This document shows positions 2,598 to 34,773 of a stretch of 34,834 nt of DNA, piece by piece. How positions within the stretch are numbered: the stretch's first letter is position 1; each line of letters opens with the position of its first letter. Both the position numbers and the translations under genes were made by a program. Below the pieces are notes generated by a model. That model saw only the letters and a list, made by a program, of their open reading frames with translations. It did no database searches and was not told the origin of the DNA. Origin of the DNA: Succinatimonas hippei YIT 12066 (GTDB taxonomy: Bacteria > Pseudomonadota > Gammaproteobacteria > Enterobacterales > Succinivibrionaceae); assembly GCF_000188195.1 (NCBI RefSeq), contig NZ_GL830964.1, forward strand, positions 1 to 34,834. The letters run 5' to 3'.

Positions 2598-3773
2598 TTA
2601 AAGCATCAGTCTATAAATTGCTTTTACGTCATCTTCATTTAAGGTTACGAATCCTCCGGTTGTTCCGGTATTTACATCGCCGTAACAGCATTTGTGCGCA
2701 AGCTCGTCAATATCTTCTTCTTTAGCGCCGAGCTCGGCAAAATTACCGGGCATGCCGATTGATTTTAAAAAGCGCCTTAATGCGTTAATACCCTCAAGCG
2801 CAGTAACTTCAGGATGTTCAAAATCCATCTCAACGCCCCACACTCTGACAGCTACCTTGGCAAAGCGCATAACGTCATGCTTTAAGTTATAAGTAAATAC
2901 CGCAGGCATCACGACGGCAAGTCCTGCTCCGTGCGCACAATCATATAAAGCTGAAAGTTCATGCTCAATATTATGACTGGTCCAATCTTGAGAACGACCC
3001 ACACCGCAAGAGTTATTATGCGCCATCATTCCCGCCCACATGATATTTGCTCTTGATTGATAATCATTGCTATCAGCTACGGCAATAGGGCCTTCTTTAA
3101 TCATGGTAAGCATCAAAGCTTCAATCATGCGATCAGTAACTTCAACATCTTTGGTATTGGTAAGGTAGCGCTCGTATAAATGCGCTAAGATATCCGTAAT
3201 ACCGCATGCAGTTTGATAGGCCGGCAATGTTTGAGTCAATGCAGGATCCAAAATTGAGAATTTAGGGCGCAGTGCTTCACCTGTAGTTGCACGTTTGAAC
3301 ATACCCTTTTCTTTAGTAATAACGGAATCACCGGATCCTTCGCTGCCGGCTGCCGAAATTGTAAGGACTGTTCCAATAGGCAAAGCTTTATCAACTGTTT
3401 TGCCTTCGTAGTAATCCCAAAAGTCACCGTCATAAACTGCACCTGCTGCAATAGCTTTAGCAGAATCAATAACGCTTCCGCCGCCTACGGCCAAAATAAA
3501 ATCAATATTTTCCTTCCTACAAAGGTTTATTCCCTCATAAACCAGGCTGTCACGAGGATTAGGTTTAACACCGCCTAATTCAACAAATCTAATTCCCTCG
3601 TTTTTAAGCGAACTGCGGATTTTATCTAAAAGACCGGATTTTTGAGCGGATCCTCCGCCAAAATGAATTAAAACTTTTGATCCGCCAAAGCGCTTAACAT
3701 AATGTCCTGCGTTAATTTCTTCATCTTTGCCGAAGACAAAATAAGTAGGGGAGTAAAAAGTAAAATTATCCAT
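2598..3773 (-). CDS. Iron-containing alcohol dehydrogenase (butanol-dehydrogenase type)
   Basis: A 391-residue group III, NAD(P)H-dependent alcohol dehydrogenase, interconverting aldehydes and alcohols in the cytoplasm. The N-terminus NFTFYSPTYFVFGKD is the classic family start. The nucleotide-binding GGGSVIDSAKAIAAG is present. Metal ligands are visible as D and H in GITDILAHLYERY and as two His residues in NIEHELSALYDCAHGAGLA. Length matches the family. The ATG at 3773 gives a start aligned with homologues; a GTG ten codons upstream (3803) is open but neither start has a convincing ribosome binding site. It is a paralogue of the enzyme at 20181-21353. It is divergent from the HAD phosphatase. 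The aldehyde substrate is not evident. Confidence 0.9.
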   Translation of the reverse strand: MDNFTFYSPTYFVFGKDEEINAGHYVKRFGGSKVLIHFGGGSAQKSGLLDKIRSSLKNEGIRFVELGGVKPNPRDSLVYEGINLCRKENIDFILAVGGGSVIDSAKAIAAGAVYDGDFWDYYEGKTVDKALPIGTVLTISAAGSEGSGDSVITKEKGMFKRATTGEALRPKFSILDPALTQTLPAYQTACGITDILAHLYERYLTNTKDVEVTDRMIEALMLTMIKEGPIAVADSNDYQSRANIMWAGMMAHNNSCGVGRSQDWTSHNIEHELSALYDCAHGAGLAVVMPAVFTYNLKHDVMRFAKVAVRVWGVEMDFEHPEVTALEGINALRRFLKSIGMPGNFAELGAKEEDIDELAHKCCYGDVNTGTTGGFVTLNEDDVKAIYRLML

Positions 3774-3979
3774 ATAAAAAAGCGAAAAATCGCCTGCCTC
3801 CACTGATACAAACTACTACATAAAGCTCATTTTAACTTACCTCTTTGTTTATAAGTAGAATCGGCAAAGCTGTTTCATTAAATTTATTTTTCTTTAATTT
3901 AATTAGCCTTAACTTTCTTTTCACTCAAAATTAATTATTGTCATTTAGAATTTATAAATCATTTATGGAGAGTCAGATA

Positions 3980-4645
3980 ATGTCCCGTGACCTTTATGTT
4001 TTTGATCTTGATTACACTTTAATCGATGCCGACAGCAGCACCTTATGGTGCCGATATATGGTAGAAAACCACATTGCAGAAGATCCTGACTTTTTAAATA
4101 AAGAAAAAAGACTAATGGATGCCTATGACCGCGGCGAACTCAACGTTCATGACTATATTGCTTTTTCCATGCCGCCAATCACCAAAATTCCCAAAGAAAA
4201 AGTCGACGCGATTGTAGATGATTTTGTAAAAAATACGTTTTCAAATTTAATTTTTAAAGAAGCAAAAGAGTTGCTTAATGAGCTTAAGAATCAAAATGAA
4301 TCGATACTACTCTTATCGGCAAGTGCCGACATGATCGTAAATGCCGTTGCCCGCTATTTAGGTATAAAAGAAGCAATCTCAGTAAACATAAAGGTAGAAA
4401 ACGGCTTTTATACCGATAAAATCGACGGTGTTCCTAGTTTTAAAGAAGGCAAAGTCATATGCCTTGAAAAATACCTGTTAGAGCATCCTGAAATTAACGG
4501 AAAAATCACTTTTTATACCGACTCTATAAACGATCTTCCTTTATGCCTTAGAGCAGATAGCGTTTATACCGTCAATCCTGGTATTTTATTAAGACAAAAG
4601 GCTTTGGAAAACAATTGGCCTATTCTTAATTGGAAGCGCGGCTGA
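3980..4645 (+). CDS. HAD-superfamily phosphatase, subfamily IB (SerB-like)
   Basis: A 221-residue cytoplasmic hydrolase. All four HAD motifs are visible: FDLDYT with the nucleophile Asp9 and acid/base Asp11, LLSASAD supplying the motif II Ser, the Lys in FKEGK as motif III, and YTDSINDLPL as motif IV. The helical cap between motifs I and II, and the overall length, fit subfamily IB, which includes phosphoserine phosphatase-like and CicA-like enzymes. I chose the ATG at 3980 because GGAG lies nine bases upstream (3967-3970); ATG codons further upstream (3965 and 3938) lack such a site. The substrate is an unidentified phosphomonoester; no serine pathway gene is nearby. Confidence 0.88.
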   Translation: MSRDLYVFDLDYTLIDADSSTLWCRYMVENHIAEDPDFLNKEKRLMDAYDRGELNVHDYIAFSMPPITKIPKEKVDAIVDDFVKNTFSNLIFKEAKELLNELKNQNESILLLSASADMIVNAVARYLGIKEAISVNIKVENGFYTDKIDGVPSFKEGKVICLEKYLLEHPEINGKITFYTDSINDLPLCLRADSVYTVNPGILLRQKALENNWPILNWKRG

Positions 4646-8841: not shown

Positions 8842-11319
8842 TTAAATAAACCTGCCGGTTATGCTGCAAGGATTGTGTTTTACTTTATAAGGCGTCCCGC
8901 ATGCGACTATCCTGCCGCCTTCGGTACCGCCTCCAGGTCCCATATCAATAATATAGTCGGCGCTGCGAATCACATCTAAATCATGCTCAATAACAATAAC
9001 CGTAGCACCTTTTTTAATAAGACTGTTAAAGACCTGCATGAGCACTTTAATATCCAGCGGGTGCAGTCCTATAGTAGGCTCGTCAAATACGAATACGCTG
9101 TCGCTTTGACCCTTGCCCATTTCGCTTGCAAGCTTTAATCTTTGAGCCTCGCCGCCTGAAAGGCTTGGCGTCTCTTCACCTAATGTAAGATAACCAAGAC
9201 CTAAATCCATTAGTACTTTAAGCCGCTGAGCAATGATTTTATATTCTTTACAATATTCATATGCATGAGCAACATCCATTGCCATTAAATCAGCAAGCGA
9301 AAATTCCTTGTCTTTAGAATTTTTGATTTTGACAAAAGAGATCTCTTTTGCATAGCGCGTTCCGCGGCAGGTGGGACATTCAATATTAACGTCAGGAAGA
9401 AACTGTACATCAAGAGCAATCGTTCCCGTACCGTCACAATTAATGCAGCGCAAGTTACCCGTATTGTAGGAAAAATCACCTGCTTTATAACCAAGACGCT
9501 TGGCGTCAGCGCTTTTGGCAAATAATTTCCTTAACTCATCATGAATATCAGCGTAAGTTGCAACTGTTGACCGGACGTTAATACCGATTGGCGTGGCGTC
9601 TATAAGCTTTATCTGACTAATACCATCTGCTTTTATATCCTTTATATGAGAAGGAAATGTCGTATGCTTAATAAAAGCTTCAAGTGCCGGAATAAGACTT
9701 TCTAAAATAAGCGTTGTTTTGCCGGAACCGGAGACTCCTGTCACCACGGTTAACTTACCTTTAGGGATCTTTACTGTAAGCGGTTTAACCGTATGAATTG
9801 ACGATGTTTCAAGATAAATTGCGCCATTTGAAAAAACGTGTTTGTCATCTATTTCCCTTTTTACGGCCACACCGCTTTCTCCGGATAAAAAAGGACCGAT
9901 TTTAGACTCTAAATTTGATTTAATATCATCAACGCTTCCTTTAGCAATAACTTGTCCGCCATCAATGCCGGCACTAGGTCCCATTTCAATTATCCAATCT
10001 GAATATGACAAAATCTGCGTATCATGATCGACTAAAACAACTGAATTACCGTCAGCTACCAAATCATCCATAACGTTTTTTAATCCTGCAATATTCAGCG
10101 GATGAAGACCGATTGACGGTTCATCAAGAACATACAGCACGCCGGTGGTACGGTTTCTTACGGCACGCGACAATTGCATGCGCTGCCTTTCACCGGTTGA
10201 AAGGGTTGAAGACGCTCTGTCTAAAGTCAAATAACCAAGGCCCAAATCCGTTAAGCGTTTGGCAGTATTTTTAAATGATTCACAAATGCTAAGTGCCATC
10301 GGTCTTAAAGGCTCACTTAAAGATGACGGTACCTTGTCAACCCATTTAATTGCCTCGGTTAAAGTCATCTTGCAAACCGTATCAAGCGAAACACCCATTA
10401 TTTTAGGAGCCCTTGCCGCCTCGGATAGTCTTGAGCCGCCGCAGTCAGGACAAATTTCCTCCTTTAAAAATTTTTCAACCCTCTTCATTCCTTTTTCGTC
10501 TTTAACTTTAGCTAGTGCGTTTTCAACGGTATAAACAGCGTTAAAGTACGTAAAATCAAGTTCTCCTGCCTGATTTGAAGACTTTGCTTTATAAAAAATA
10601 TGTTTTTTAACAGCAGGTCCGTTAAATACGATATCTTTTTCTTTATCAGTCAAATTCTTAAACGGAACATCGGTTCGTACTCCCATCGCCCTGCAGACAT
10701 CAACCATCAGCGACCACATAAGTGAATTCCAAGGAGCAACCGCGCCTTCCTCAATTGTTAAAGAATCATCAGGAATTAAGGTTGTTCTATCAACCGTGCG
10801 CACGATTCCGGTACCGCCGCAGGTCCTGCACGCGCCTTGACTGTTAAACGCTAACTCTTCTGCCGACGGAGCGAAAAATCGTGATTTACAGACCGGACAA
10901 AGCAATTCCTTTTCCGCCGCGACATCAAGAGTCGGTTCCAAATAATGATCGTTTGGACAGCGGTGAGATGCAAGACGGGAAAACATAAGGCGCAGACTGT
11001 TTAAAAGCTCTGTTCCGGTACCGAACGTACTGCGTATTCCCGGAACTGACGGTCTTTGATGCAAAGCAAGCGCGGCTGGAACATATAAAATTTCATCCAC
11101 TTGAGCTTTTGCCGCCTGTGTCATGCGTCTTCTTGTGTAAGTGGATAAAGCTTCAAGATAGCGTCTTGATCCTTCTGAATACAAAACACCTAATGCAAGC
11201 GATGATTTGCCGGAGCCTGAAACTCCGGCAATACCGACAATCTGATTTAGAGGAATATCTACATTGATATTTTTTAAATTATGAACGCGCGCTCCGCGGA
11301 TTTTAATTGCCTTATCCAT
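8842..11319 (-). CDS. UvrA-like ABC ATPase lacking the UvrB-binding domain (class II UvrA)
   Basis: An 825-residue tandem ATPase of the UvrA family, about 115 residues shorter than E. coli UvrA. The first half has Walker A GVSGSGKSS (32-40), signature LSTGERQRMQLSRA and Walker B LYVLDEPSIGLHP. The second half has GVSGSGKTT, LSGGEAQRLKLASEM and VFVFDEPTIGLHP. The C-terminal zinc finger CINC...CPTC is intact. Zinc module 1 reads CPND...CPVC with only about 20 residues between the pairs. E. coli UvrA carries roughly 110-130 residues there, including the UvrB-binding domain, so that domain is missing. Such proteins (UvrA2, DrrC-like) act in tolerance to DNA-binding compounds or in unclear repair roles rather than standard excision repair. 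It stands alone, with its own promoter region. Confidence 0.9.
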   Translation of the reverse strand: MDKAIKIRGARVHNLKNINVDIPLNQIVGIAGVSGSGKSSLALGVLYSEGSRRYLEALSTYTRRRMTQAAKAQVDEILYVPAALALHQRPSVPGIRSTFGTGTELLNSLRLMFSRLASHRCPNDHYLEPTLDVAAEKELLCPVCKSRFFAPSAEELAFNSQGACRTCGGTGIVRTVDRTTLIPDDSLTIEEGAVAPWNSLMWSLMVDVCRAMGVRTDVPFKNLTDKEKDIVFNGPAVKKHIFYKAKSSNQAGELDFTYFNAVYTVENALAKVKDEKGMKRVEKFLKEEICPDCGGSRLSEAARAPKIMGVSLDTVCKMTLTEAIKWVDKVPSSLSEPLRPMALSICESFKNTAKRLTDLGLGYLTLDRASSTLSTGERQRMQLSRAVRNRTTGVLYVLDEPSIGLHPLNIAGLKNVMDDLVADGNSVVLVDHDTQILSYSDWIIEMGPSAGIDGGQVIAKGSVDDIKSNLESKIGPFLSGESGVAVKREIDDKHVFSNGAIYLETSSIHTVKPLTVKIPKGKLTVVTGVSGSGKTTLILESLIPALEAFIKHTTFPSHIKDIKADGISQIKLIDATPIGINVRSTVATYADIHDELRKLFAKSADAKRLGYKAGDFSYNTGNLRCINCDGTGTIALDVQFLPDVNIECPTCRGTRYAKEISFVKIKNSKDKEFSLADLMAMDVAHAYEYCKEYKIIAQRLKVLMDLGLGYLTLGEETPSLSGGEAQRLKLASEMGKGQSDSVFVFDEPTIGLHPLDIKVLMQVFNSLIKKGATVIVIEHDLDVIRSADYIIDMGPGGGTEGGRIVACGTPYKVKHNPCSITGRFI

Positions 11320-14137: not shown

Positions 14138-15289
14138 CTATTTTTTTATCCGATCAAAAACCAAATCCACCCCGATTAAAAGGTCAAAACTCGGCTTAAA
14201 ATCAATGAGGCGGGCAGTTTCCAAATTAAGACACAAATTTAAAGGCGCATAATAGTACTGTGAAATCATTTCAGGTTTTTCGCCTTTAACGATTCGTTCA
14301 ATAACTCTGGCCTCAAATTCTCCCGACGCCTGCAAATCAGCGTTGGATAAGGCCATTAAAGCGCCCATTTGAACTTCATTTTCCCCGGTTTGAGAAAAAA
14401 TCGGCAGCTTTCTATCAATTAGAGGCTTTATCTGATAGTAAAAGTTATCTGGTGACGCTCCGTTTCCCATGGGAATATATACGGCATCCACGGCATCATT
14501 GGCAGCCAGATTCAAAGCGCACGTACTAAAAGCACTTTGTGTCTTGGCATGATTATCGCCTACAACAGGACCTTTACATTCGATGAGATTAAATTTAAGT
14601 TCCTGAGAAAGTTTTCTTATAATCGGTACGGCCTGGCCTGGCTGATTTATCGGATTATCATCGATAATAACGCCCAGGTTTTTAAACTTAAAAGTATTAT
14701 AAAAAAGCCTTAGTTCCGACTCGTAGCGATTCATTTCCTTTTGCACGTGAATGTTCTTTTTATTTGAAAACTCACCAGGTCCTATTATTCCCGAACTTTC
14801 AGGATCGGTAGGAGTCATGACTAAAACCGGAACGTTTAAGGAACTGTCAGTAAGCATCTGACCTGCAACGGTTCCCAGTGCCCATACCATGGAAATGTCA
14901 CTTGAAGACTTTATGCGATTTTTTAAAGTATCGGCAAGCTCTTTGGCTTTATCATGATCCCAATATCCGTCATAAAATCCGTCTTCAACAAACTCAATGC
15001 AGCCGCCTTGCGTCTTTTGCGCCATTTCCTGAAAACTATTGTTCTTATCTAAAAGAAAGTTACGATCAATAAGCTCACCGTTTATAAATCCGTTTCTTTG
15101 CAAGGCAAGAGTTGTTTGTCTGAATACTTTTTGAAAATCCGTATAGCTTCCGGCCTGAAAAACTGCCACCTTATACGCTTTTCCCAGCGAACATTGCGTA
15201 CTTTGCGCTGAAAAAGCGGCAAAACTTAATAAAACTTGCCCCAAAATAAACGCTTTAAAGCTGCGTTTAAAAAAATTATGTAAAAACAT
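14138..15289 (-). CDS. Periplasmic substrate-binding protein, ABC_sub_bind (PF04392) type
   Basis: A 383-residue exported protein with a Sec signal peptide (FLHNFFKRSFKAFILGQVLL then an SFAAFSA cleavage region). The mature part shows the type I periplasmic binding fold of the TrpX-like PF04392 group: KVAVFQAGSYTDFQ at the start, VWALGTVAGQML, VPVLVMTPTDPESSGI, LGVIIDDNP and AVYIPMGNGASPDNF. Those proteins normally deliver a small ligand to an ABC permease. No ABC permease or ATPase lies nearby; the divergent neighbour is an MFS transporter with sensor-like periplasmic regions. I chose the ATG at 15289, which follows AGAGGA; a TTG further out (15316) is possible. The ligand is unknown. Confidence 0.78.
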   Translation of the reverse strand: MFLHNFFKRSFKAFILGQVLLSFAAFSAQSTQCSLGKAYKVAVFQAGSYTDFQKVFRQTTLALQRNGFINGELIDRNFLLDKNNSFQEMAQKTQGGCIEFVEDGFYDGYWDHDKAKELADTLKNRIKSSSDISMVWALGTVAGQMLTDSSLNVPVLVMTPTDPESSGIIGPGEFSNKKNIHVQKEMNRYESELRLFYNTFKFKNLGVIIDDNPINQPGQAVPIIRKLSQELKFNLIECKGPVVGDNHAKTQSAFSTCALNLAANDAVDAVYIPMGNGASPDNFYYQIKPLIDRKLPIFSQTGENEVQMGALMALSNADLQASGEFEARVIERIVKGEKPEMISQYYYAPLNLCLNLETARLIDFKPSFDLLIGVDLVFDRIKK

Positions 15290-15371
15290 GATCCTCTTAC
15301 ATCCGTACAGGTGCAATACTGTCCTTAACTATCTATAATAAACGCAAAACCACGGTCTTTTGAGTAAATTA

Positions 15372-17675
15372 ATGAAAAATATCCTTAAAGCTGTTTTCAA
15401 TCTGCGCTTATTTGCCGTTTTAGTGGTATTTTTCATATCCCAATTCTTTTTTGTCTCACTTGTCGTCTCTTCTTATAACGATTACCGCGTTCAAACTGCG
15501 CAGGATCTGCTGCAATTTAATATAAATAATACCGCAATGCGTATTAACAACATCACGGCAATGGGACGCAACATTCAAAACTATCAAAGAGCGATGCAGG
15601 ATCTTTACGATCTGAAAATGATAAGTAAAGCCGCGGACGTTTTTATCGCGGATAAAGACGGACGGATTGTTGTCGGTAAATCAACCGTCGGATTAAATAC
15701 CCTAGATATTAAAAAACTTACCGGGCAGAACATCTTACTTTCCGGCAATATTTATTTATACGCACCCTTTTTTGATATTACAGGACATAATGCGGGTTTT
15801 GTTCTTGCAACGCTTGGAAACAATCAAAAGCAAAGTTTAAGTGAAGAAGAAACAAAAGAGCTTTATGCAAGCGTAGGACTAGGCCTTGTTATCTCCACTT
15901 TGTGCTTTATCGTCTTTTTTATTCTGATTAACCTAAAAAGACAAAGTGCAAACCATGTTTTATCGGTAAGAACTTTACTTATACCTTTTTTTATTGCGCA
16001 AATGATTATAATTGCCTGCATGACGCCAAGCGTGATAAAGGCAATTGATAATCATGCCGACTCATTGCAGACGGCAGCTTTCGGGTCAGTAAGCAAAGAC
16101 TTCTCCGCCGTCACGAGACTTAACATCAGCCTTCATGAAGTAAGCGGCTTTAACGATTACTTTATAAAATTAAAAGAAAATGTTCCTTTTATCGATAAAA
16201 TTTCACTTACCGATGAAAATGGCAATGTGATTGCCGGCGACAATCTTAAAATCGATCAATACTTTCCTATCATCAGTCATAATGAAGTTATCGGCTCGCT
16301 AAGCCTTACCACAAAGATTGAATACACAAAATTTGTTGATTTGGGGCTTAACTTACTGACATTATTTTTTATTTCAGCGCTTTTAGCCTATGAATTGACC
16401 TCGCTGTTACGTCACGAAATGGCAAGAATGCTGCGTCCACAAAAGAAAATCCCTTTTGAACCTTCGCTTATCCGTCCGCTTGGTTTTTTGATTATTTTCG
16501 GCGCTTTCCTACCTGTCAGCATCGTTCCTGTCTTTATGGGTCAATATGCCGATGATTTAGGCTTTTTATCTTCAGATCTTGTTAAAAGTCTTGCCGTTTC
16601 AACCGACATGACAGGTGTTGCAATAAGCTCTCTTTTGATTTTGTTTTGCGACAAAGCATTAAGCGATTGGAAAAAAGTATTGCCTATAAGCACTTTCCTC
16701 CTTATTTTCAGCACCGCGCTATGTTTTCTGTCTTTTAACGCCTATTCATTTTTACTTGGCAGACTGTTATACGGCATTGCCTACGGCGGCATTATCGTAA
16801 GCTGCCAATTATGCGTTATGGACGCAACCGACGATACCTCTCGGGCAAAAGGCATGTCTGCAGCATTTGCCGGACTTTTCTCGGGAGTTTTATGCGGAGT
16901 AGCCGCAGGCGGAATAATCGCCGATAAATTTAATATGCGCTTGGTGTTTGCAATTTCCTGTGCCTTTGCCGTATTTAATTTCCTGCTGTTACTTTATATT
17001 ATGAAGCACCGTACAGCGCTTAGCGCTAACGCTTCTACACATAAAAACGATTTTAAGAGCGCTTTACTTCCTTTATCAAAAGTAACTGCCTTTATTAAAG
17101 ATCCTAAATCCTTGTCTCTCATGCTCCTGCAGGTAATCCCTTACAGCGCTATCGGCATCGGATTTTTTAATTTCTTCCTGCCCGTTACCGTACAGGAAAA
17201 CGGAATGGGAGCCTCAACCGTCGGACAGCTTAATTTCTTATATTCGTTCCTGGTTATCATCCTTGCTCCGATCATGGGCAAAGTTATAGATAAAATTGAC
17301 CGAAAATATGTGATTTTGTCTCTGGCACTTTTATTCTCAGCGCTGGTTCCGCTTGCATTTAAACTGCCAAGCCTTATCGGCGCTTCAATACTTGCCATGA
17401 TTTTATTAGGCATATCCGCATCGATTAACGAAGGCGGTCAACCGGCCGTAATGGCAAGTTATGAGGTTTCTAAAAAAATCGGACCGTCAATATCAATTAA
17501 AGTCCTGGATTCATTTTTAAGGTTGGGTCAAATAGCAGGGCCTCTCATAATTGCCGTAATAATGAGCGCTTTCGGCACCGCCGGCTTTTCATTCATGGCA
17601 ATAACAGTCGCAGTATGCGCAATGCTGTTTTTTATAATTCAGCACTTTTTGAACACAAGGAAAACATCGTGTTAA
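15372..17675 (+). CDS. MFS transporter fused to N-terminal double extracytoplasmic sensor region
   Basis: A 767-residue membrane protein of unusual architecture. TM1 lies near residues 12-34, then an extracytoplasmic region of about 125 residues with a Cache/PAS-like stretch (ADVFIADKDGRIVVGKSTVG). TM2 and TM3 follow, then a second extracytoplasmic region of about 100 residues with a matching stretch (IDKISLTDENGNVIAGD), then TM4. From about residue 365 there is a complete 12-segment MFS domain, with GRLLYGIAYGGIIVSCQ and an A-loop-like GKVIDKIDRKYV between halves. The MFS part resembles drug/metabolite exporters. Start is either this ATG or a TTG at 15360; both lack a strong ribosome binding site. 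It overlaps the next gene by seven bases and is divergent from the binding protein. Confidence 0.82.
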   Translation: MKNILKAVFNLRLFAVLVVFFISQFFFVSLVVSSYNDYRVQTAQDLLQFNINNTAMRINNITAMGRNIQNYQRAMQDLYDLKMISKAADVFIADKDGRIVVGKSTVGLNTLDIKKLTGQNILLSGNIYLYAPFFDITGHNAGFVLATLGNNQKQSLSEEETKELYASVGLGLVISTLCFIVFFILINLKRQSANHVLSVRTLLIPFFIAQMIIIACMTPSVIKAIDNHADSLQTAAFGSVSKDFSAVTRLNISLHEVSGFNDYFIKLKENVPFIDKISLTDENGNVIAGDNLKIDQYFPIISHNEVIGSLSLTTKIEYTKFVDLGLNLLTLFFISALLAYELTSLLRHEMARMLRPQKKIPFEPSLIRPLGFLIIFGAFLPVSIVPVFMGQYADDLGFLSSDLVKSLAVSTDMTGVAISSLLILFCDKALSDWKKVLPISTFLLIFSTALCFLSFNAYSFLLGRLLYGIAYGGIIVSCQLCVMDATDDTSRAKGMSAAFAGLFSGVLCGVAAGGIIADKFNMRLVFAISCAFAVFNFLLLLYIMKHRTALSANASTHKNDFKSALLPLSKVTAFIKDPKSLSLMLLQVIPYSAIGIGFFNFFLPVTVQENGMGASTVGQLNFLYSFLVIILAPIMGKVIDKIDRKYVILSLALLFSALVPLAFKLPSLIGASILAMILLGISASINEGGQPAVMASYEVSKKIGPSISIKVLDSFLRLGQIAGPLIIAVIMSAFGTAGFSFMAITVAVCAMLFFIIQHFLNTRKTSC

Positions 17676-19108
17676 CTGATTTTCTAAAACCGCATCTTAA
17701 AAGTTTCTGCGATAAATTTTCCGACATGAGTTTAAAAGACTACCATGGACTGCTTTTTACCAAGGGTACCGTACCGTCTGACACTTTTATAAATGCCGTT
17801 ATAAGCAACATAAAACTAAATTACGGCGATATTGATGAAGAAAACGTACGCTTGGCGTTAAAGCATCCGCAGTGCGTTTATTGCGCCAATCACGGCGGAA
17901 TTGAAAATCATCCTGAACTTATAGCATCAAGTCTTATGAGTTCATACTTTGCTCCGCTTTTTAAAAAGCAGGCTTTAATAATTCTTGCCTGTACCTCCAT
18001 TGGCCCTAAAAACCCTACCGTTCCCGGCGGTTTCCTTTTAGGAAAGCGCCTTGAAGAAAACCACTACAAGCGCAAAAGAATAAGCTTCATCCCCAGAAAA
18101 TACGATCTTAAATATCTTTGTTCCTTAAGAGCGCTAAAAAGTGATGATATAAAGCGCAAGCTAAACACGGTATCTGCTTTAGCATCATCATATGAACTCT
18201 CAGCCATAGAAGCTTTTACTCCTGAAAATTTCGGAGAAAATTCTTTTTTAAGCCAATGCTTTAAGACAAACTCATTTTATATAAAGAGTTTTTTAACTAA
18301 GGTTCCCCATTGCCCCTGCTACTTTGTAGATGACAGCGTCCTAATAAGCGATCTTTTGAAAATATCGCTTGAAAATGAAAATTCATTTATTTTCAAAATT
18401 TTTAACTCTCCTCATCTTTTATATACGCTTTGTAAAAATCTTAAAGGCAGAGCTAACCTTTGGTCTGATGAAAGGGTAACGGACAATTGGAAAGACGATT
18501 TTACCGGCAGAGGATCGGTACTTTTTTATAGAAAAAAAGACTCAGGAACTATTGAACAATTATCTTTGGTCAAAGATAAAAACGACGTCTATCTTCGATC
18601 GGCTGACTATACATTAAAAGTAACGCCGCAGAACATCATTGAAGCTTTAAATAAAAACGCGTTAATTGCCGATCTGTATTTAGGCTATATCTGCTTGACA
18701 TTAGACTATAACGTATCTTTAATCGGCGGCATCTTTTTTAACTACTATATAAAAGATATGCTGGAAATTACCGCAAAAACTTTAAATCTGCCAAAACCTA
18801 CAGAGCCTATATACAGCACTGAATTTATTCAATCTTTTTTAACACCGTTTAAAGTCATCAGCCCTGATGCAGATCCTTTTTCTCTTAATAAGTCCCGTCC
18901 GCTGCTGCAGCTTGATTTACATCATCTTGAGCCTATAGATGAGACACAAGCTTCTTCCTTACTAACTGCAACGGTAAAAGAAGCTTTACCTCTATCAATT
19001 GCGGATATGCTTTTGGATTTTGATTTGTCCGATACGCAAATTACCGATCTAAGACAGGAATTAGTAAAAAATCTAAATGCCAAATCACCGATAGAGTTTT
19101 ATCTATAG
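17669..19108 (+). CDS. Hypothetical protein coupled to the sensor-MFS transporter
   Basis: A 479-residue protein of unrecognised family, soluble by appearance. I chose the GTG at 17669, which has AAGGA seven bases upstream and overlaps the transporter stop by seven bases; this implies translational coupling. An upstream ATG at 17615 lies deep in the transporter gene and is less likely. Distinct elements are CVYCANHGGIENHPE (in the first 90 residues), the following LACTSIGPKNPTVPGGFLLGKRLEE, and DNWKDDFTGRGSVLFY in the middle. The HGG and IGPKNPTVPGG elements look like active-site loops, but I cannot name an enzyme class. Context suggests it makes, modifies or degrades the transported compound. 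Confidence 0.75.
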   Translation: MLTDFLKPHLKSFCDKFSDMSLKDYHGLLFTKGTVPSDTFINAVISNIKLNYGDIDEENVRLALKHPQCVYCANHGGIENHPELIASSLMSSYFAPLFKKQALIILACTSIGPKNPTVPGGFLLGKRLEENHYKRKRISFIPRKYDLKYLCSLRALKSDDIKRKLNTVSALASSYELSAIEAFTPENFGENSFLSQCFKTNSFYIKSFLTKVPHCPCYFVDDSVLISDLLKISLENENSFIFKIFNSPHLLYTLCKNLKGRANLWSDERVTDNWKDDFTGRGSVLFYRKKDSGTIEQLSLVKDKNDVYLRSADYTLKVTPQNIIEALNKNALIADLYLGYICLTLDYNVSLIGGIFFNYYIKDMLEITAKTLNLPKPTEPIYSTEFIQSFLTPFKVISPDADPFSLNKSRPLLQLDLHHLEPIDETQASSLLTATVKEALPLSIADMLLDFDLSDTQITDLRQELVKNLNAKSPIEFYL

Positions 19109-26882: not shown

Positions 26883-27836
26883 ATGAGTAAAAAGCTGCGG
26901 TATTTGAAAATAACAGTAAAAAATACGTTAGCTTTTATCGTAACTTTACTGTTTATTGCCTCATTAAGCTTTTTTATCATTGTATCCTTACCGGGAGATG
27001 CGGCATTAAACGCCATGCTGCCAATGGGTATTACCGATACCCATGTAATTAATGAGCTGCGACAAAGCTTGGGAATTGATTTGTCATTGCCGCTGCGTTT
27101 TTTTAATTGGTTAAAAGCCGCAATCTGCTTTGATTTCGGGCAATCCTTTTATTATGCAAGTCCGGTAAGCGCTGTTTTAGCCAAAGCTGCTCTCATCACC
27201 TTGAAAATATGTTTTATTGCAGCAATTTTAATCGTAATAATTTCCCTGCCCTTAGGTCTTTATTGCGCTCTTTACCCTAATTCTTTACTGGATAAGCTCT
27301 TACATGTACTGGCGATTTTATGCTTAAGCCTCCCTACTTTTATTCTCGGTCTTATATGCTTAAGCATAATGGGGGCCAAACTTAAACTTATAGGAACTCT
27401 TCCTGCAATAACATTTAAGGAACTTTTGATCCCGGCAGGTACGCTTGCACTGCCTATGATTGCTTACTATATACGACAAATCCGTACCGCGGTGTTAAAA
27501 GAAATCGCACAAAGCTATATCCAAGCTTTAATCGTGCGCGGAATTTCCTTAAACGTAATTCTGCTAAAGCATGTACTGCCGCGAGCTCTTATCGCACTTT
27601 TACCGCTTGCCGGCATCAGCTGTGCCCGTCTTTTGTGCGGGTCTGTCATCGTAGAAACCGTTTTTTCCATTAACGGACTTGGTACTGTTGCATTAAAAGC
27701 CGTCACCATGCGCGATATTAACCTTATCGAAGCCTACGTTATTTATTGCTCAATAATCTTCATTATTTTAAACAAAAGCGTAGATCTGCTGTGCCGCCGC
27801 TTATCCAGAAAAGCTCGAGGTGACGTAAATGAGTAA
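26883..27836 (+). CDS. nikB: ABC importer permease, NikB/OppB type
   Basis: A 317-residue inner-membrane permease with about six hydrophobic segments. The start is typical (ASLSFFIIVSLPGDAAL), then a G-I-D-x-x-x-P-x-R-F-x-x-W loop. The conserved EAA coupling loop is visible as YIQALIVRGISLNVILLKHV, and the closing GSVIVETVFSINGLG is the family signature. It forms the membrane channel with NikC. It begins directly after the methyltransferase stop and overlaps the next gene by eight bases. I name it for the nickel subfamily because of the larBCE genes that follow and the SBP sequence; the peptide subfamily cannot be excluded from the permease alone. Confidence 0.85.
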   Translation: MSKKLRYLKITVKNTLAFIVTLLFIASLSFFIIVSLPGDAALNAMLPMGITDTHVINELRQSLGIDLSLPLRFFNWLKAAICFDFGQSFYYASPVSAVLAKAALITLKICFIAAILIVIISLPLGLYCALYPNSLLDKLLHVLAILCLSLPTFILGLICLSIMGAKLKLIGTLPAITFKELLIPAGTLALPMIAYYIRQIRTAVLKEIAQSYIQALIVRGISLNVILLKHVLPRALIALLPLAGISCARLLCGSVIVETVFSINGLGTVALKAVTMRDINLIEAYVIYCSIIFIILNKSVDLLCRRLSRKARGDVNE

Positions 27837-28644
27837 AAGATTAGTCTTTTATCTTATAAGTTTGATTTGCGTCATCTGGTGCGGTTTTTTATTTTTGGGA
27901 GCTTTTTTTATTCCTTGTGATCCGTATACAACCTCCCCCGAGCTTTCTCTTGCCGCTCCGTCGTCATCCCATATTTTAGGCTGCGATCGTCTGGGAAGAG
28001 ACCTATTGTCAAGACTGCTTTCTGCCTCTTTTCCCTCATTTCTGACTGCGATAGCCGTTATCGCCGTTTCTCTTGCTATAGGGGTAATATTGGGCCTTAT
28101 ACAAGCTTTTTGTAACAACTTTTTAGGATCTATCAGTAAAATATTAACAGATCTGCTGCTCTCTTTTCCTCAAAGTATTGCCGTTATCTTCATCGCTGGT
28201 ACTTTAAGCGCCGGTATTTTCGGTTCAAGTTTTGCCATTGCTCTTTTCTTATGGCCGCATTTTGCGCGTATCACTTACACAATCTCCGGTGATGCTATGC
28301 AAAACGACTATATGAAACAAGCAAGACTTTCAGGTGAAAATACTTTTAGAATCATCAGATACTATCTTTTTTACGAGTTAAAAGATCAACTTTTAATTAC
28401 TGCTCTTTTAGATTTAAGCGCCGTAATTTTAGCTATGGCGACACTGTCTTTTTTAGGTTTGTCTTCCCAGCCGCCGCTGCCTGAATGGGGATCTATGCTC
28501 TTTGAAAACCGCAACTATTTAGACAGTGCTCCGCATCTGCTTATTTTCCCCGCATTATTTATTTTTATAAGCTCACTTTTATTTAATCTTTTAGGACAAA
28601 GCTATGCTAAAAGATTTGAAATAAGCAGGATAAATTTATGCTGA
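27829..28644 (+). CDS. nikC: ABC importer permease, NikC/OppC type
   Basis: A 271-residue permease with about five to six hydrophobic segments. It shows the OppC/NikC landmarks HILGCDRLGRDLLSRLL near residue 50, the coupling loop YMKQARLSGENTFRIIRYYL, and LSFLGLSSQPPLPEWGSML close to the C-terminus. It pairs with NikB as the second half of the channel. It overlaps its upstream neighbour by eight bases and the binding-protein gene by seven, so the set is translationally coupled. The subfamily name follows the operon, not this sequence alone. Confidence 0.85.
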   Translation: MSKRLVFYLISLICVIWCGFLFLGAFFIPCDPYTTSPELSLAAPSSSHILGCDRLGRDLLSRLLSASFPSFLTAIAVIAVSLAIGVILGLIQAFCNNFLGSISKILTDLLLSFPQSIAVIFIAGTLSAGIFGSSFAIALFLWPHFARITYTISGDAMQNDYMKQARLSGENTFRIIRYYLFYELKDQLLITALLDLSAVILAMATLSFLGLSSQPPLPEWGSMLFENRNYLDSAPHLLIFPALFIFISSLLFNLLGQSYAKRFEISRINLC

Positions 28645-30227
28645 AAATAAAAAATCAAATAAAAAAATTACTGTCTGTTTTTTTCTTAGTATTTATCCTG
28701 CCTCTTGCGATTGTTTCCTGCGGCAAAAGCGATAATATGACCGCAGGCACATCAGCAAACAACGAAAAGTCTTTAAAGGTAGGATTATTCTTTTTAAATT
28801 ATTCGCTTGATCCTAAGGACTATTTTAACGGATGGATCCTGGTACGGGTCGGAGCCGGAGAAACATTGCTGCGTCTTGACGACAAAGGCAGCCTTATCCC
28901 GGCGCTTGCAGAACAATTTAAAGTTATCAATAAAACTACTTATGAGCTGACGTTAAAGCAGGGTATTAAATTCTCCGATGCAAGTGAACTTAACGCCGAC
29001 ATGGTAAAGCGCAATTTAGAAAGAATTTTTGCCTATAGCCCTCGAGCCAAACAATATTTTGAGCCTTTAAAAATCAGTGCCGACAATACTAAACGTACCA
29101 TAACGATTTACACCAAAAAACCGTGTCCCGAGCTTTTTTACAATCTATGCGAACCGCTTTTTGCCGTCATAAAACTCCCTGAGTCCAATCAAGACTTAAC
29201 TGTAAGCCTTCCCGTTACAACGGGTCCTTATCAAATAAGTTCGTTTACCCCCAATGAGCACATTCAGGTCACTCCGAATCCTTATTTTAGAGACGGCAAA
29301 GCACCGCTTTCATCCATTGATTTTTATTACATACCGGATGCACAAAGCAGACTTATATCCTTAAAGGCAGGAGATCTTGATATCATTACTACGGTAGATT
29401 ATCCTGATTTCAAACTGCTGCAAAATGACAGTGCCTTCAATACGCAAAGTACTCCCGGACCGCGCACTGATGTCGTTTATCTAAATCATAATAATGAATT
29501 TTTAAAGCAAAAAATCATCAGAAAAGCCATCAGTTTAGCAATAAACCGCAATGAAATAGCACAACTTACCGGCAGTGAGCCCGCTTCCGGAGTTATTTCT
29601 CCGCATTTTGATTTCGGACGTGAAATTACCACTACAGATTACAATCCATCTCTTGCTGCAAGTCTGCTTGATACAGCTAAGATCATCGACTTAAATCATG
29701 ATGGAATAAGAGAATTTAACGGTCAAAACATTGAACTAAACTATCGCTTAAAATCAGATCACGGATCTGCAGACAGCCTTATTATCGCCCAATGCATTAA
29801 AGAAGATTTGGCAGCACTGGGCATTAAAGTAAATCTTATTCAGACGGAAAATTTAAGCGCCGCTATAAGTGCAGCCGACTTTGATTTATGTTCAGCCAAC
29901 GACAGCGCTCTGCCCACCGGAGACAGCGGATACTTTTTAAAATCACGCTACCATAGCAAAGGTGACGCCAACTTCGGGCATTATGCCAATCAAGATCTTG
30001 ACGCTTTACTTTCAAAACTTGAAGAAAGCTTTGAAAGAAACAAACGTGTAAAGCTTACCGTACAGATTGCCAATCTATTAAATGAAGATGTAGCAGCTTT
30101 ATACATAAGTTATCCCAAGCTTAATATCGTAAGCTCCAATAGGGTTAAAGATCTGCATCTTTATACTTTTGATTACTACTTAATCGACTCTAAGGTAAAC
30201 GTAGATGCCGGAACTTTTACAAATTAA
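28638..30227 (+). CDS. nikA: Nickel-type ABC substrate-binding lipoprotein (SBP_bac_5)
   Basis: A 529-residue lipoprotein with lipobox IVSC (Cys28) and a family 5 solute-binding domain. The early stretch NGWILVRVGAGETLLRLDD is the arrangement seen in nickel and metal-metallophore binders (NikA/NikZ/CntA); peptide binders differ there. Further landmarks are LTLKQGIKFSDASELNADMVKRNLE, TGPYQISSFTPNE and KAISLAINRNEIAQL. It captures the ligand at the outer face of the inner membrane and hands it to NikBC. AGGA precedes the ATG at seven bases. The ligand may be Ni(II) chelated by His or another small molecule; the binding residues cannot be read safely by eye. Confidence 0.82.
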   Translation: MLKIKNQIKKLLSVFFLVFILPLAIVSCGKSDNMTAGTSANNEKSLKVGLFFLNYSLDPKDYFNGWILVRVGAGETLLRLDDKGSLIPALAEQFKVINKTTYELTLKQGIKFSDASELNADMVKRNLERIFAYSPRAKQYFEPLKISADNTKRTITIYTKKPCPELFYNLCEPLFAVIKLPESNQDLTVSLPVTTGPYQISSFTPNEHIQVTPNPYFRDGKAPLSSIDFYYIPDAQSRLISLKAGDLDIITTVDYPDFKLLQNDSAFNTQSTPGPRTDVVYLNHNNEFLKQKIIRKAISLAINRNEIAQLTGSEPASGVISPHFDFGREITTTDYNPSLAASLLDTAKIIDLNHDGIREFNGQNIELNYRLKSDHGSADSLIIAQCIKEDLAALGIKVNLIQTENLSAAISAADFDLCSANDSALPTGDSGYFLKSRYHSKGDANFGHYANQDLDALLSKLEESFERNKRVKLTVQIANLLNEDVAALYISYPKLNIVSSNRVKDLHLYTFDYYLIDSKVNVDAGTFTN

Positions 30228-30930
30228 CAATCTGTCAATTACAAATGGCGACAGAATTTTTGTGAAAAACGCCAATCTTGTTTTAAAACAAGGTGATTGC
30301 ACCGCCTTAACCGGCCCTTCCGGTGTCGGTAAAAGTACATTATTTAAAGCTGTTTGTCATTTATTGCCATGTGACTTTTCCGTAAGCGGAGATATTTATT
30401 TTGACTCGCAAAATATCAGTATGCTTAATTTAAAACAATTAAGATCCTATTTCGGTTCAGGCTTTACCCTCATTTTGCAAAATCCTCAGGAAAATTTTGA
30501 CGATCGCAAAAACATCTTAAGTCACTTCGAAGAGGCTATGCGGGCTACAAGCAAAGAGGCAAAGCTTAAAGTTAAAGAGCTTGCCGTAAACCTTTTATAT
30601 AAAATGCAGCTTGCCTACCCGCAAAATCTGTTAAAACGCCGGGCTTTTGAGCTTTCTCAGGGAATGGCGCAGCGTGTAATTTTAGCTCTTGCCCTATTGC
30701 AGCAGCCGAAACTTATTCTTGCGGATGAATTTACCTGCTCGCTTGACGTTATAACCCGAATACAAATTTTACAGCTGATAAAAAATCTGCAGCGAGAAAT
30801 GGGATTTAGTCTATTTTTTATTACGCATAATGAAGACGAAGTAAAATTTTTAAACGCCGCCTGCTACCACCTTGAAAACGGCACACTTATCCGCAAAAGC
30901 ATAAATGAGGCAGACGCTGATGTTGCTTAA
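30205..30930 (+). CDS. nikD: ABC importer ATPase, NikD type
   Basis: A 241-residue ATPase. Walker A GPSGVGKST lies near residue 40, Q-loop at LILQNPQENFD, signature LSQGMAQRVILALALL (a variant of LSGGQ), Walker B LILADEF with the catalytic Glu, D-loop SLD and H-loop FFITHNED. The protein is short and lacks the C-terminal Cys-containing domain present in its partner. It begins inside the end of the binding-protein gene (23-base overlap). Together with the next ATPase it powers NikBC. The LSQGM signature is an accepted variant in NikD-like proteins. Confidence 0.87.
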   Translation: MPELLQINNLSITNGDRIFVKNANLVLKQGDCTALTGPSGVGKSTLFKAVCHLLPCDFSVSGDIYFDSQNISMLNLKQLRSYFGSGFTLILQNPQENFDDRKNILSHFEEAMRATSKEAKLKVKELAVNLLYKMQLAYPQNLLKRRAFELSQGMAQRVILALALLQQPKLILADEFTCSLDVITRIQILQLIKNLQREMGFSLFFITHNEDEVKFLNAACYHLENGTLIRKSINEADADVA

Positions 30931-31846
30931 ACTCACAGATCTTAAATTTAACTATGACGTTGAAAACCATAAGCAGGTTAAAGCTCTGCGCGGTCTTTCT
31001 TTATGTATAGATGAAGGACAGATGCTCTCACTTGTAGGTGAATCGGGCTGCGGCAAAACCACTTTATGCAATATTTTAAATTTGTGCTTAAAAAATTATA
31101 CGGGACATGCCGAATTTTGGGAGACAGAGTTAAATAAAATAACGGATAAAAAAGATTACTACACTAAAATTCAGTATATTTTTCAAGATCCTAAAAGCGC
31201 TGTAAGTCCTTATCAAAAACTCTCCTATTTTATGGCTGCTCCTTTAATTAATTTAAAAGGCTTAAACAAGTTTGACGCTTTTAAGCTTATATCAAGGCAA
31301 TTACCTAAAATCGGACTTCATACCGATATTTTAAATAAGCATTCAAACGAAGTAAGCCTTGGACAACTGCAAAGACTATGTCTGCTTAAAAGTCTTATCA
31401 TCAAACCTAAATTGTTATTATGTGATGAAATTACCGCATCTCTTGACCCTCTCTCTGCACGGGAATGCTTAAAACTTATAAAAGAATATCAAAATGAAGG
31501 CATGAGCGTTTTATTTATAACCCATGACTTCAATCTAGCCAAAAGTTTCTGCAAACGTCTTGCCATTATGTTTAAAGGCATGATTTTAGAAGACTTGCAG
31601 GACTGCTCTCCGCTGCACCCTTATACTAAAGAGCTTGAAAAGGCTTCGGATATTTTAAGTGGAAAGCAAGATCCGATTTTATTAAAACAAAACAATGCTC
31701 TGTCATGTCCCATAAGCATTGACAGCGGCTGTCCTTATTACAAACGTTGTGCAAAAAGAATACCGCAATGTTTAAACACAATGCCGGAACTTGTAAGCAT
31801 GCCGTCAGGTCACAGCGTGCGTTGCCTTAACATATTGGAGATATAA
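30920..31846 (+). CDS. nikE: ABC importer ATPase, NikE/OppF type with C-terminal Cys-rich tail
   Basis: A 308-residue ATPase. Walker A GESGCGKTT, Q-loop IFQDPKSAVSP, signature VSLGQLQRLCLLKSL (the Leu-Ser-Gly of LSGGQ replaced), Walker B LLLCDEITASLDP and H-loop FITHDF. The C-terminal tail is the oligopeptide/nickel type, with CPISIDSGCPYYKRC and a later Cys in IPQC. This resembles the [4Fe-4S]-binding Cys set known in some peptide and nickel importer ATPases. I chose the ATG at 30920, with GAGG at 30907-30910; an ATG at 30905 lacks a ribosome binding site. It overlaps the previous ATPase gene by 11 bases and is three bases before larB. Confidence 0.86.
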   Translation: MLLKLTDLKFNYDVENHKQVKALRGLSLCIDEGQMLSLVGESGCGKTTLCNILNLCLKNYTGHAEFWETELNKITDKKDYYTKIQYIFQDPKSAVSPYQKLSYFMAAPLINLKGLNKFDAFKLISRQLPKIGLHTDILNKHSNEVSLGQLQRLCLLKSLIIKPKLLLCDEITASLDPLSARECLKLIKEYQNEGMSVLFITHDFNLAKSFCKRLAIMFKGMILEDLQDCSPLHPYTKELEKASDILSGKQDPILLKQNNALSCPISIDSGCPYYKRCAKRIPQCLNTMPELVSMPSGHSVRCLNILEI

Positions 31847-31848
31847 AC

Positions 31849-32610
31849 ATGGCTATGGATTTAGATGAACTTTTAAACGGGGTAAAAAACGGCACCATTT
31901 CAATTGAGTCTGCAAAAGCAAAAATTAAAGCTGCGCCTTTTATCGATCTTGATTATGCCAAGCTGGATATGCATCGCCGCTTGCGTACCGGTATGTCAGA
32001 GGTAGTATTCTGCCAAGGAAAAGCTGATGATTTCTTAGTTAAAATCGTAAGCAAGTTCTTAGAGGTGGACGGCGAAGTTTTCGGTACGCGCTGCAGCAAG
32101 GCTCAGGCTGAAATGCTGCAAAAACTTATGCCGCAACTTCAATATGATCCGATAAGCCAAATAATTTCCTATCATAAAGAAAAAGAACTTAAAGGCTCCA
32201 TTGCCGTAGTCACCGCAGGAACATCCGATATAAAGGTAGCCGAAGAGGCTGCCCGCACTTGCGAATATTTCGGCGGCAAAGTAAGTCGTATCTATGATGC
32301 CGGAGTAAGCGGACTTCATCGCATTCTGGCAAATTTAACGCCGATCCAAAACGCCAACTGCACTATTGTTATTGCCGGCATGGAGGGAGCCTTGGCTTCG
32401 GTTATCGGAGGCTTGGTCGCCAATCCCGTTATCGCAGTGCCGACTTCCGTAGGCTACGGTGCGAATTTTCACGGTTTGTCCGCCCTGCTTACCATGATCA
32501 ATACCTGTGCTAACGGTGTCGCTACCGTCAATATCGATAACGGATTCGGAGCCGGCTTTATCGCCACGCAAATCAACCGCCTTGCAGTTAAAGCCAATAC
32601 CGATAAATAA
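31849..32610 (+). CDS. larB: LarB, nickel-pincer cofactor biosynthesis (carboxylase/hydrolase)
   Basis: A 253-residue cytoplasmic enzyme. LarB carboxylates the pyridinium ring of nicotinic acid adenine dinucleotide and releases AMP, giving pyridinium-3,5-biscarboxylic acid mononucleotide, the first step to NPN. The C-terminal half is the AIR-carboxylase-like domain: VTAGTSDIKVAEEAA, SRIYDAGVSGLHRI, VIAGMEGALASVIGGL and PVIAVPTSVGYG with FHGLSALLTMINTCANGV. The N-terminal part has the FIDLDYAKLDMHRRLRTGMSEVV start region typical of LarB. GGAG lies eight bases before the ATG. It follows nikE and is followed by larC after 14 bases. Confidence 0.95.
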   Translation: MAMDLDELLNGVKNGTISIESAKAKIKAAPFIDLDYAKLDMHRRLRTGMSEVVFCQGKADDFLVKIVSKFLEVDGEVFGTRCSKAQAEMLQKLMPQLQYDPISQIISYHKEKELKGSIAVVTAGTSDIKVAEEAARTCEYFGGKVSRIYDAGVSGLHRILANLTPIQNANCTIVIAGMEGALASVIGGLVANPVIAVPTSVGYGANFHGLSALLTMINTCANGVATVNIDNGFGAGFIATQINRLAVKANTDK

Positions 32611-32624
32611 AAAGGATACATTAT

Positions 32625-33974: not shown

Positions 33975-34773
33975 GGAAAAGCTTATAAGTTACTTAACGC
34001 CGTACGCCAAAAAGCGTACGGCGCTTGCCTTCTCAGGCGGTGCCGATAGCACTCTTTTATTATTTGAGCTGTCTAAACTGTGCCGTAAAGAAGGCGGGAG
34101 CGTATATGCTTTTTACGCAAGTACAGCATTAAATCCGCGCCTTGAAGCTAAAGAAGCCCTCAATATATGTCAAAGCTTTAACGTATCTCTTGAAATCATT
34201 GAAATATCCGTACTTGAATATATTAAAAATAATCCGATAAATCGCTGTTATTTATGTAAAAAGCATATTTTCAGTGCAATTGCGAATAAAGCACGGCAAC
34301 GTAAATGCGATGTAATTTTTGACGGAACCAACAGTGACGATCTAAAAGAGTATAGACCCGGCATTAAAGCCCTTCATGAACTTGATATCTTAAGTCCTCT
34401 TGCTTTAATGAATATCAATAAAACCGAAGTACGCCATATTTTAAAAAATCATGATATCAAGACAGCAGCAAAGCCATCAGCACCGTGTTTAGCTACTCGC
34501 TTCCCTTACGGAACATGCTTAACCCAAGAGAAACTTGATGCTGTAGGAAATGCCGAAAGCAAAATAAAGGCTTTAGGCTTTTATAATGTAAGAGTAAGAG
34601 CGCATGACAATATCGCTAGAATTGAGCTTGATGAAAATGAATTTTCTAAAGCATTAGCGCAAAAAAACATGCTTCTCGGCATAATTAAACAAGCAGGTTT
34701 TGATTACGTAACCTTGGATCTTGAGGGATTTAAATCAGGAAGTATGGATAAAAAACTACTTAAAAATAACTAA
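33961..34773 (+). CDS. larE: LarE, sulfur-transfer ATPase of the three-cysteine type
   Basis: A 270-residue PP-loop enzyme that adenylates the carboxylates of the LarB product and converts them to thiocarboxylates. The PP-loop is SGGADST (25-31). Further landmarks are FDGTNSDD and RPGIKALHELDILSPLA. Cys96 and Cys99 (RCYLCKKH) plus Cys176 (PCLATRFPYG) form the three-Cys set found in LarE proteins reported to carry a [4Fe-4S] cluster and to work catalytically. LarE of L. plantarum instead uses the single sacrificial Cys176. I chose the ATG at 33961 with GGGGAG just upstream; the ATG at 33937 lies further back in larC. It is the last gene of the run and overlaps larC by 14 bases. Confidence 0.93.
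   Translation: MPSAEEKLISYLTPYAKKRTALAFSGGADSTLLLFELSKLCRKEGGSVYAFYASTALNPRLEAKEALNICQSFNVSLEIIEISVLEYIKNNPINRCYLCKKHIFSAIANKARQRKCDVIFDGTNSDDLKEYRPGIKALHELDILSPLALMNINKTEVRHILKNHDIKTAAKPSAPCLATRFPYGTCLTQEKLDAVGNAESKIKALGFYNVRVRAHDNIARIELDENEFSKALAQKNMLLGIIKQAGFDYVTLDLEGFKSGSMDKKLLKNN

Follow-up and report, generated by a model that had tools for sequence, protein, structure and literature searches.

Extracytoplasmic sensor domains of the Cache and PAS-like type are known to precede kinases, cyclases, phosphatases and chemoreceptors, and LuxP-LuxQ is the precedent for pairing a periplasmic binding protein with a membrane protein that has two outer PAS/Cache-like domains and a kinase output. 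Binding proteins can also serve secondary transporters, as in the TRAP transporters, where the binding protein contacts the transporter itself. Antiporters of the drug/H+ (DHA) type within the major facilitator superfamily (MFS), such as NorA, SotB and VMAT, have a motif C with GP in their fifth transmembrane (TM) segment. A three-gene set lies at positions 14138-19108 of a 34,834-nucleotide stretch (the window) that covers contig NZ_GL830964.1 of Succinatimonas hippei YIT 12066. The gene for a PF04392-type periplasmic substrate-binding protein (SBP) is divergent from a gene for an MFS transporter with two sensor-like outer regions (sensor-MFS), and a third gene is coupled to the transporter gene, all three being present where the initial annotation had placed them.

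The set resembles LuxP-LuxQ in its layout, although its output is a transporter instead of a kinase and its SBP belongs to PF04392 (TrpX-like), unlike LuxP. A secondary transporter with its own SBP is likewise the plan of the TRAP transporters, from which the system differs by its MFS fold and its sensor-like domains. With the DHA-type antiporters it has PF07690 and the overall fold in common (Z 34-38), while it adds the two outer regions and a dedicated SBP and has another residue for the proline of motif C; in the same fold comparison the scores of importers are nearly as high.

The locus is one member of a module conserved across the proteobacteria, and no description of such a system was found in the titles or abstract starts of the open-licence papers to which the searches were limited. 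The reading we favour, at slightly less than even confidence, is that of a sensor-gated MFS exporter with a PF04392-type SBP and, here, a BshC-like ligase, in which release would be tuned by the outside concentration. The module suggests an unrecognised control of small-molecule release.

Conservation and partners of the sensor-MFS

Of 41 genomes (the window genome and 40 relatives), the same nine, all of them Succinivibrionaceae, gave matches to the sensor-MFS (at E 1e-79 or lower) and to the third gene, and the SBP was found in eight of these nine and in six others. At wider range the sensor-MFS profile matched 31 of 394 genomes of the order (E<=1e-20), 10 of 369 of the class (1e-30, including the window genome and two short plain MFS proteins) and 12 of 398 of the phylum (1e-60, of which four are the window genome and genomes that the order-level search had already given); relatives are spread over several classes of this phylum and also occur on a Vibrio plasmid. 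The third-gene profile matched ten of the 394 genomes of the order, all within the 31 that carry the sensor-MFS (hypergeometric p 2e-12, shared ancestry ignored).

Forty-nine loci, with three genomes present twice (G377, G220, G128), were annotated with our own profile library. This set excludes the order-level match G314, the loci L158, L179 and L198, where picking of open reading frames (ORFs) gave no MFS frame above 440 aa, and L186 and L187, which hold a plain MFS protein of 454-460 aa; the picking takes the first ATG, GTG or TTG and makes some lengths too long. Of the two uncounted Azospirillum plasmid loci, L157 has, next to the MFS gene, annotated Feo iron transport and hydrolase genes but no annotated SBP, and L158 is the one named above.

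The initial annotation had proposed that the SBP delivers ligand to the sensor part of the MFS protein, which would control the pump; the neighbourhoods bear out that the SBP goes with the sensor-MFS. A PF04392-type SBP lies within 3 kb of the sensor-MFS in 42 of the 49 loci, with a 4-nt overlap in 24, as judged by a profile built in part from SBPs that are themselves among its matches. By group these are 6/10 Succinivibrionaceae, 26/26 others of the order or the Vibrio plasmid, and 10/13 from class and phylum; four of the seven misses (L097, L182, L194, L195) are loci where the MFS gene has a short flank on one or both sides. Pfam provided an independent check, in which all nine SBPs submitted from distant loci exceeded the PF04392 cut-off, as did those of L060, L138 (two) and L147 and that of the window (E 2.2e-10, 40.7 bits against 25.9).

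The SBP had also been described as lacking a nearby ABC permease. None was recognised among twelve other window proteins scanned with Pfam at 7.7-26.9 kb, a set that leaves out a 123-aa ORF at 21406 and everything encoded at 8842-11319. Farther along, at 26.9-31.8 kb, the window encodes an ABC system of nickel type, which has a binding protein of its own. A pairing of the SBP with an ABC transporter in all relatives is not what the 42 loci display, as far as their partly scanned flanks go. Six BPD_transp_2 permeases are encoded on other contigs of the window genome, with partners outside this comparison. The SBP thus goes with this transporter family and could in addition serve an ABC permease encoded at some other place in the genome. 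Relatives of the SBP were also seen beside SctN (L081, L082) and divergent from a SpoIIE-like gene (L086, L087), all in genomes without the sensor-MFS, which suggests an SBP sensing pair that is independent of the MFS.

A ligase-like gene of some type adjoins the MFS gene in 24 of the 49 loci, and the type differs between lineages. An ATP-grasp gene stands beside the sensor-MFS in twelve (L060, L130-L137, L149, L192, L193), a D-Ala-D-Ala-ligase-like gene in two (L147, L148), and a BshC-like gene was found in ten, namely eight Succinivibrionaceae (with the SBP gene in between in L056), L138 and L139; in the L058 genome, about 23 kb separate the BshC-like gene from the MFS gene. The ATP-grasp labels, like those for the type VI secretion system (T6SS), come from single-sequence profiles of G025 and its neighbours, apart from those checked with Pfam, which confirmed the ATP-grasp or D-Ala-D-Ala-ligase-like genes of L060, L147, L149 and L192. 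In the MFS tree the ATP-grasp loci fall in one clade (support 0.83) together with three ligase-less loci and one short-flanked locus, and the BshC-type loci in another (0.79) together with L182, whose flank is cut. Since ATP-grasp and BshC-type enzymes both make amide bonds, the enzyme is read as the maker of the transported compound. The initial annotation had allowed that the coupled protein may act on this compound; an enzyme-like BshC fold would fit, and the proposal can be refined to a maker, more likely than a degrader, because other lineages carry ATP-grasp or D-Ala-D-Ala-ligase-like genes beside the MFS gene.

The two-region, sensor-like architecture is conserved in relatives. In split members (L145, L156, L180, L191, L195-L197) the first sensor region has a small gene to itself, immediately upstream; in L145 (6306-7118) and L156 (7337-8170) this gene codes for a membrane sensor protein of 270-277 aa just before an MFS with one outer region, and L145 and L156 (Vibrio plasmid), which have the same layout, adjoin VgrG-, Hcp- and TssB-like genes.

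A variant operon in L138 (721-10551) and L139 (1290-11093) holds genes for a DapF-like protein, the MFS, the BshC-like protein, two SBPs, a dCache_2 hybrid kinase and a regulator. Its MFS protein has lost both outer regions and kept hydrophobic N-terminal segments, and this loss is accompanied by the dCache_2 histidine kinase and the two PF04392 SBPs. Staphylopine-type metallophore operons, with CntK and CntE, likewise have an MFS gene beside a DapF-like gene, a likeness that concerns those two genes. From the DapF-like gene, L138 and L139 could at most tentatively be read as opine-metallophore operons; DapF-profile matches in L147 and L148 lie 2.9 and 4.8 kb from the MFS gene and may be ordinary dapF.

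Gene models and predicted folds

The hydrophobic segments and the charge pattern of the sensor-MFS agree with the initial annotation of an MFS domain preceded by two extracytoplasmic regions, each framed by a TM pair. Four hydrophobic segments precede the MFS helices (18-36, 172-190, 200-218 and 325-343 in the numbering of the 771-aa frame), and K+R account for 18-23% of the N-terminus, of the loop between the pairs and of the linker to the MFS as against 8.5-9.6% of both extracytoplasmic regions, which span about 135 and 105 residues. The N-terminus is placed in the cytoplasm because this distribution obeys the positive-inside rule. The sensor parts have a receptor-like position, and the sole part downstream of them is the MFS. 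The features are collected in the table below.

Table. Features of the three-gene set (positions in the window)
Feature	Position	Strand	Remarks
PF04392-type periplasmic SBP	14138..15316	-	transcribed away from the MFS gene; ORF as listed 392 aa (TTG)
Sensor-MFS, 767 aa	15372..17675	+	two TM-framed extracytoplasmic regions, then MFS domain
Extracytoplasmic region 1	15468..15872	+	residues 33-167 from ATG; Cache-like predicted topology, ADKDGRIV hairpin
Extracytoplasmic region 2	16017..16334	+	residues 216-321 from ATG; second hairpin TDENGNV
MFS domain	16461..17669	+	VMAT2, SotB and NorA among nearest solved folds
Protein of BshC-like predicted fold, predicted ligase, 479 aa	17669..19108	+	GTG start

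The ATG at codon 10 (15289) is a likelier start of the SBP than the TTG of the listed ORF, and its secretion signal was judged by inspection alone. The sensor-MFS frame opens with a TTG at 15360 (771 aa), the ATG at 15372 being the likely start, and closes with TAA at 17673-17675, which the third gene overlaps by 7 nt from its GTG at 17669.

Each extracytoplasmic region contains one D-x-D/E/N-G-x-I/V stretch (ADKDGRIVVGKS and TDENGNVIAGD), a pattern counted 23 times in the 372,064 aa of all collected ORFs, both window copies included and some loci present twice, or about 0.02 per 366 aa. The AlphaFold2 model of the sensor-MFS (eight sequences; pLDDT 81.5, pTM 0.73) gives each outer region as a long helix continuous with a TM helix and then five or four strands, and the signature stretches sit in strand-turn-strand hairpins of both. 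A long helix followed by strands with a hairpin is the element order of single Cache domains and of Cache/PAS-like sensors. On this predicted topology and the short signature the outer regions are considered Cache-like, rather than proven Cache domains.

The transporter part matches MFS_1 (PF07690) with E 2.3e-28 and 99.5 bits against a cut-off of 33.4, the best stretch starting at residue 376 of the 771-aa frame and the domain at about residue 372 of the 767-aa protein. When its predicted model (residues 362-771) was compared with solved folds by VIA-align, VMAT2 gave Z 37.7 over 382 residues, SLC37A4 36.5, SotB 35.7 and NorA 35.1. The best NCBIfam match was a multidrug MFS superfamily model, at 57.9 bits against a cut-off of 131.

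The third-gene product gave no Pfam or NCBIfam match at E<=1, and a PDB sequence search with its profile found nothing at E<=10. Its AlphaFold2 model (six sequences; pLDDT 77.0, pTM 0.82, with pLDDT below 50 at residues 110-152) was matched by Foldseek to Bacillus subtilis BshC in the PDB (E 7.5e-5, probability 1.00), the next match having E 0.6. VIA-align to BshC (4wbd), the ligase of bacillithiol synthesis that adds cysteine to GlcN-malate, gave Z 13.1 and an rmsd of 4.5 over 349 of 479 residues. The predicted fold is thus common to the two proteins, whereas the third gene differs from BshC in lacking a PF10079 match and in overlapping a transporter gene; the likeness is one of overall fold and does not extend to a residue-by-residue comparison of active sites. 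An A-x-H-x-G stretch at residues 73-77 is invariant in nine sequences, and the protein may be an active ligase.

Outside this set, the nickel-type ABC transporter genes (NikA/B/C/D/E-like, all below equivalog cut-offs) lie within 26883-34773, with genes for LarB, LarC and LarE (nickel-pincer cofactor; above cut-offs) directly 3' of them in the same region and genes for an ArsP-like permease and a methyltransferase upstream.

Proposed export under sensor control and the import alternative

Under the favoured reading, the BshC-like ligase would join an amino acid to another small molecule and the MFS would export the product. The SBP would capture this product, or a competing outside cue, in the periplasm and dock on the sensor domains, whose helices run into the membrane and may adjust the MFS such that release is tuned to the outside concentration. 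Binding of SBP or ligand outside, relayed through the TM helices to the pump, is the simplest reading because the SBP is nearly always present; contact of the SBP with the sensor domains and the resulting gating would be the central steps. The outward direction of transport is drawn mostly from the neighbouring ligases and is put forward tentatively on that account.

Several results weigh against this reading. For the transporter, the importer PepTSt is close in fold (Z 35.3), every NCBIfam match is under its cut-off with an aromatic acid/H+ symporter family second best, and the region of antiporter motif C (GLFSGVLCGVAAGG) retains the glycines with the proline replaced. For the sensor regions, the Pfam Cache models gave no match to the window protein, dCache_1 matched two of 23 N-terminal regions of relatives (best E 0.011), and an hhalign comparison of the outer regions with a recognised dCache_2 domain was weak, aligning 20 columns at the hairpin only (E 0.029, probability 1.7%); of the Cache-like stretches reported by the initial annotation, one is present in each region, but recognition as Cache does not follow. 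A HAMP match just before the MFS was seen in a single member (L146), slightly under cut-off, and none in nine other N-terminal regions scanned. For the third gene, the Foldseek TM-scores to BshC are modest (0.40/0.36), and the next VIA-align match is class I LysRS (Z 9.7), class I synthetases and BshC having a nucleotide-binding Rossmann-type core in common. The BshC family model PF10079 had no match at E<=1 in nine members and none at E<=10 in the window genome, though control genomes are found, and the protein is therefore called BshC-like in predicted fold only, outside shown membership of the BshC family. As to gene pairing, 25 of the 49 loci have no ligase-like gene beside the MFS, some with short flanks, the SBP lies elsewhere on the contig in L053 and L058 (5.7 and about 21 kb away), and in L057 the locus ends near the expected SBP position and a genome search found no SBP.

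Some of these points would suit an uptake system, in which the SBP hands a nutrient or signal by way of the outer domains to the MFS and the BshC-like enzyme uses it inside; we consider this unlikely, though it is the strongest competitor. An SBP kept beside its transporter in 42 loci is typical of uptake, the related solved protein 6hni carries the name of an ABC-transport solute-binding protein, the peptide importer PepTSt and the symporter family are among the matches just given, and TRAP transporters are a precedent for an SBP with a secondary transporter. The TRAP binding protein touches its transporter, however, whereas sensor-like domains are found here, the top folds are monoamine and drug antiporters, if by small margins, and ligase-like genes beside 24 of the 49 transporters fit a product better than food.

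Secretion-system neighbours and possible function

A link to protein secretion, absent from the initial annotation, was seen in many loci. At least three T6SS gene matches occur in 20 of the 49, in three separate parts of the MFS tree. In L060 a second small binding-protein-like gene (3450-4181; SBP_bac_3, under cut-off) follows the PF04392 gene within a T6SS cluster, and relatives by similarity are present in the T6SS clusters of L130-L137, L140-L144, L146 and L153-L155.

In Succinivibrionaceae (L053-L055, L057, L058, L097) genes of a type III secretion system (T3SS) or a SpoIIE/HATPase/STAS partner switch lie close to the set. A T3SS ATPase exceeded its cut-off in 13 of the 41 genomes and in 0/14 control genomes, with weaker related-ATPase matches in all; within 25 genomes of the family it was found in 8/9 with the sensor-MFS versus 5/16 without (Fisher p 0.011, shared ancestry ignored). 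Contigs C28 and C55 of the window genome carry T3SS genes, and T3SS profiles gave no match on the window contig, all of which the window covers. One study (PMC5549432) reports a positive correlation in sheep between methane yield and the abundance of rumen T3SS genes and transcripts, several of the genes being affiliated with Succinivibrio.

In Succinivibrionaceae the genes for proteins of about 600-800 aa that form one similarity cluster (L054:11135-15805, extending over 11135-17137 in L098; L061:5641-7428; L062:5741-8167) stand between those for the SBP and the T3SS ATPase. Pfam gave no match in the two cluster proteins of L054 that were scanned, and they are possibly secreted substrates or accessory parts.

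These neighbours raise the alternative of a transceptor, a protein that is mainly a receptor: SBP, sensors and MFS would jointly detect a compound and pass the signal to a SpoIIE-type phosphatase/STAS/HATPase switch that may control the T3SS, much as UhpC is an MFS receptor. The proximity of the set to SpoIIE/HATPase and T3SS genes in L054, L055, L057 and L097, the excess of T3SS ATPases in sensor-MFS genomes and the SBP paralogues beside SctN or SpoIIE genes would all be consistent with it. Yet no cytoplasmic signalling domain was recognised on the sensor-MFS, in G006, which carries the complete set, no T3SS ATPase exceeded the cut-off and SpoIIE gave no match at E<=1e-10, and outside Succinivibrionaceae no SpoIIE neighbour is labelled in the annotated loci except for histidine kinase cross-hits in L138 and L139. 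Nor did hhalign support descent of the SpoIIE sensor and the MFS sensor regions from one ancestor (E 0.18). We therefore regard such signalling as quite improbable. The narrower idea of a T3SS-specific regulator, suggested by L054 and L055, is likewise weakened, as T6SS loci, loci without either system and G006 carry the sensor-MFS and the SBP. Least probable of all is an ordinary multidrug MFS pump whose anchored outer domains only help assembly or cell-wall contact and whose SBP and third gene have separate jobs, which would fit the best, sub-threshold NCBIfam match and the outer domains that Pfam does not recognise as Cache but not an SBP kept close in 42 of 49 loci and a third gene that turned up in sensor-MFS genomes alone.

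Extending the favoured reading of sensor-controlled export, it is conceivable, if rather doubtful, that the set is a new kind of chemical-signalling module, in which the ligase would make an amino-acid conjugate, the sensor-gated MFS would release it and the PF04392 protein would report its outside level to the pump. Such a module would have been put in place on several occasions, the ligase being interchangeable (BshC-like, ATP-grasp or D-Ala-D-Ala-ligase-like), and in several cases inside T6SS or T3SS loci. If so, protein weapons would be coupled to a self-made small molecule.

The sensors described here end in a transporter only, and an SBP accompanies them across proteobacterial classes. 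If they gate the pump, secondary transport would be controlled directly from outside without transcription. The recurrence of the set among T6SS genes and beside the T3SS genes of gut and rumen Succinivibrionaceae provides a testable link between a small molecule and protein secretion.

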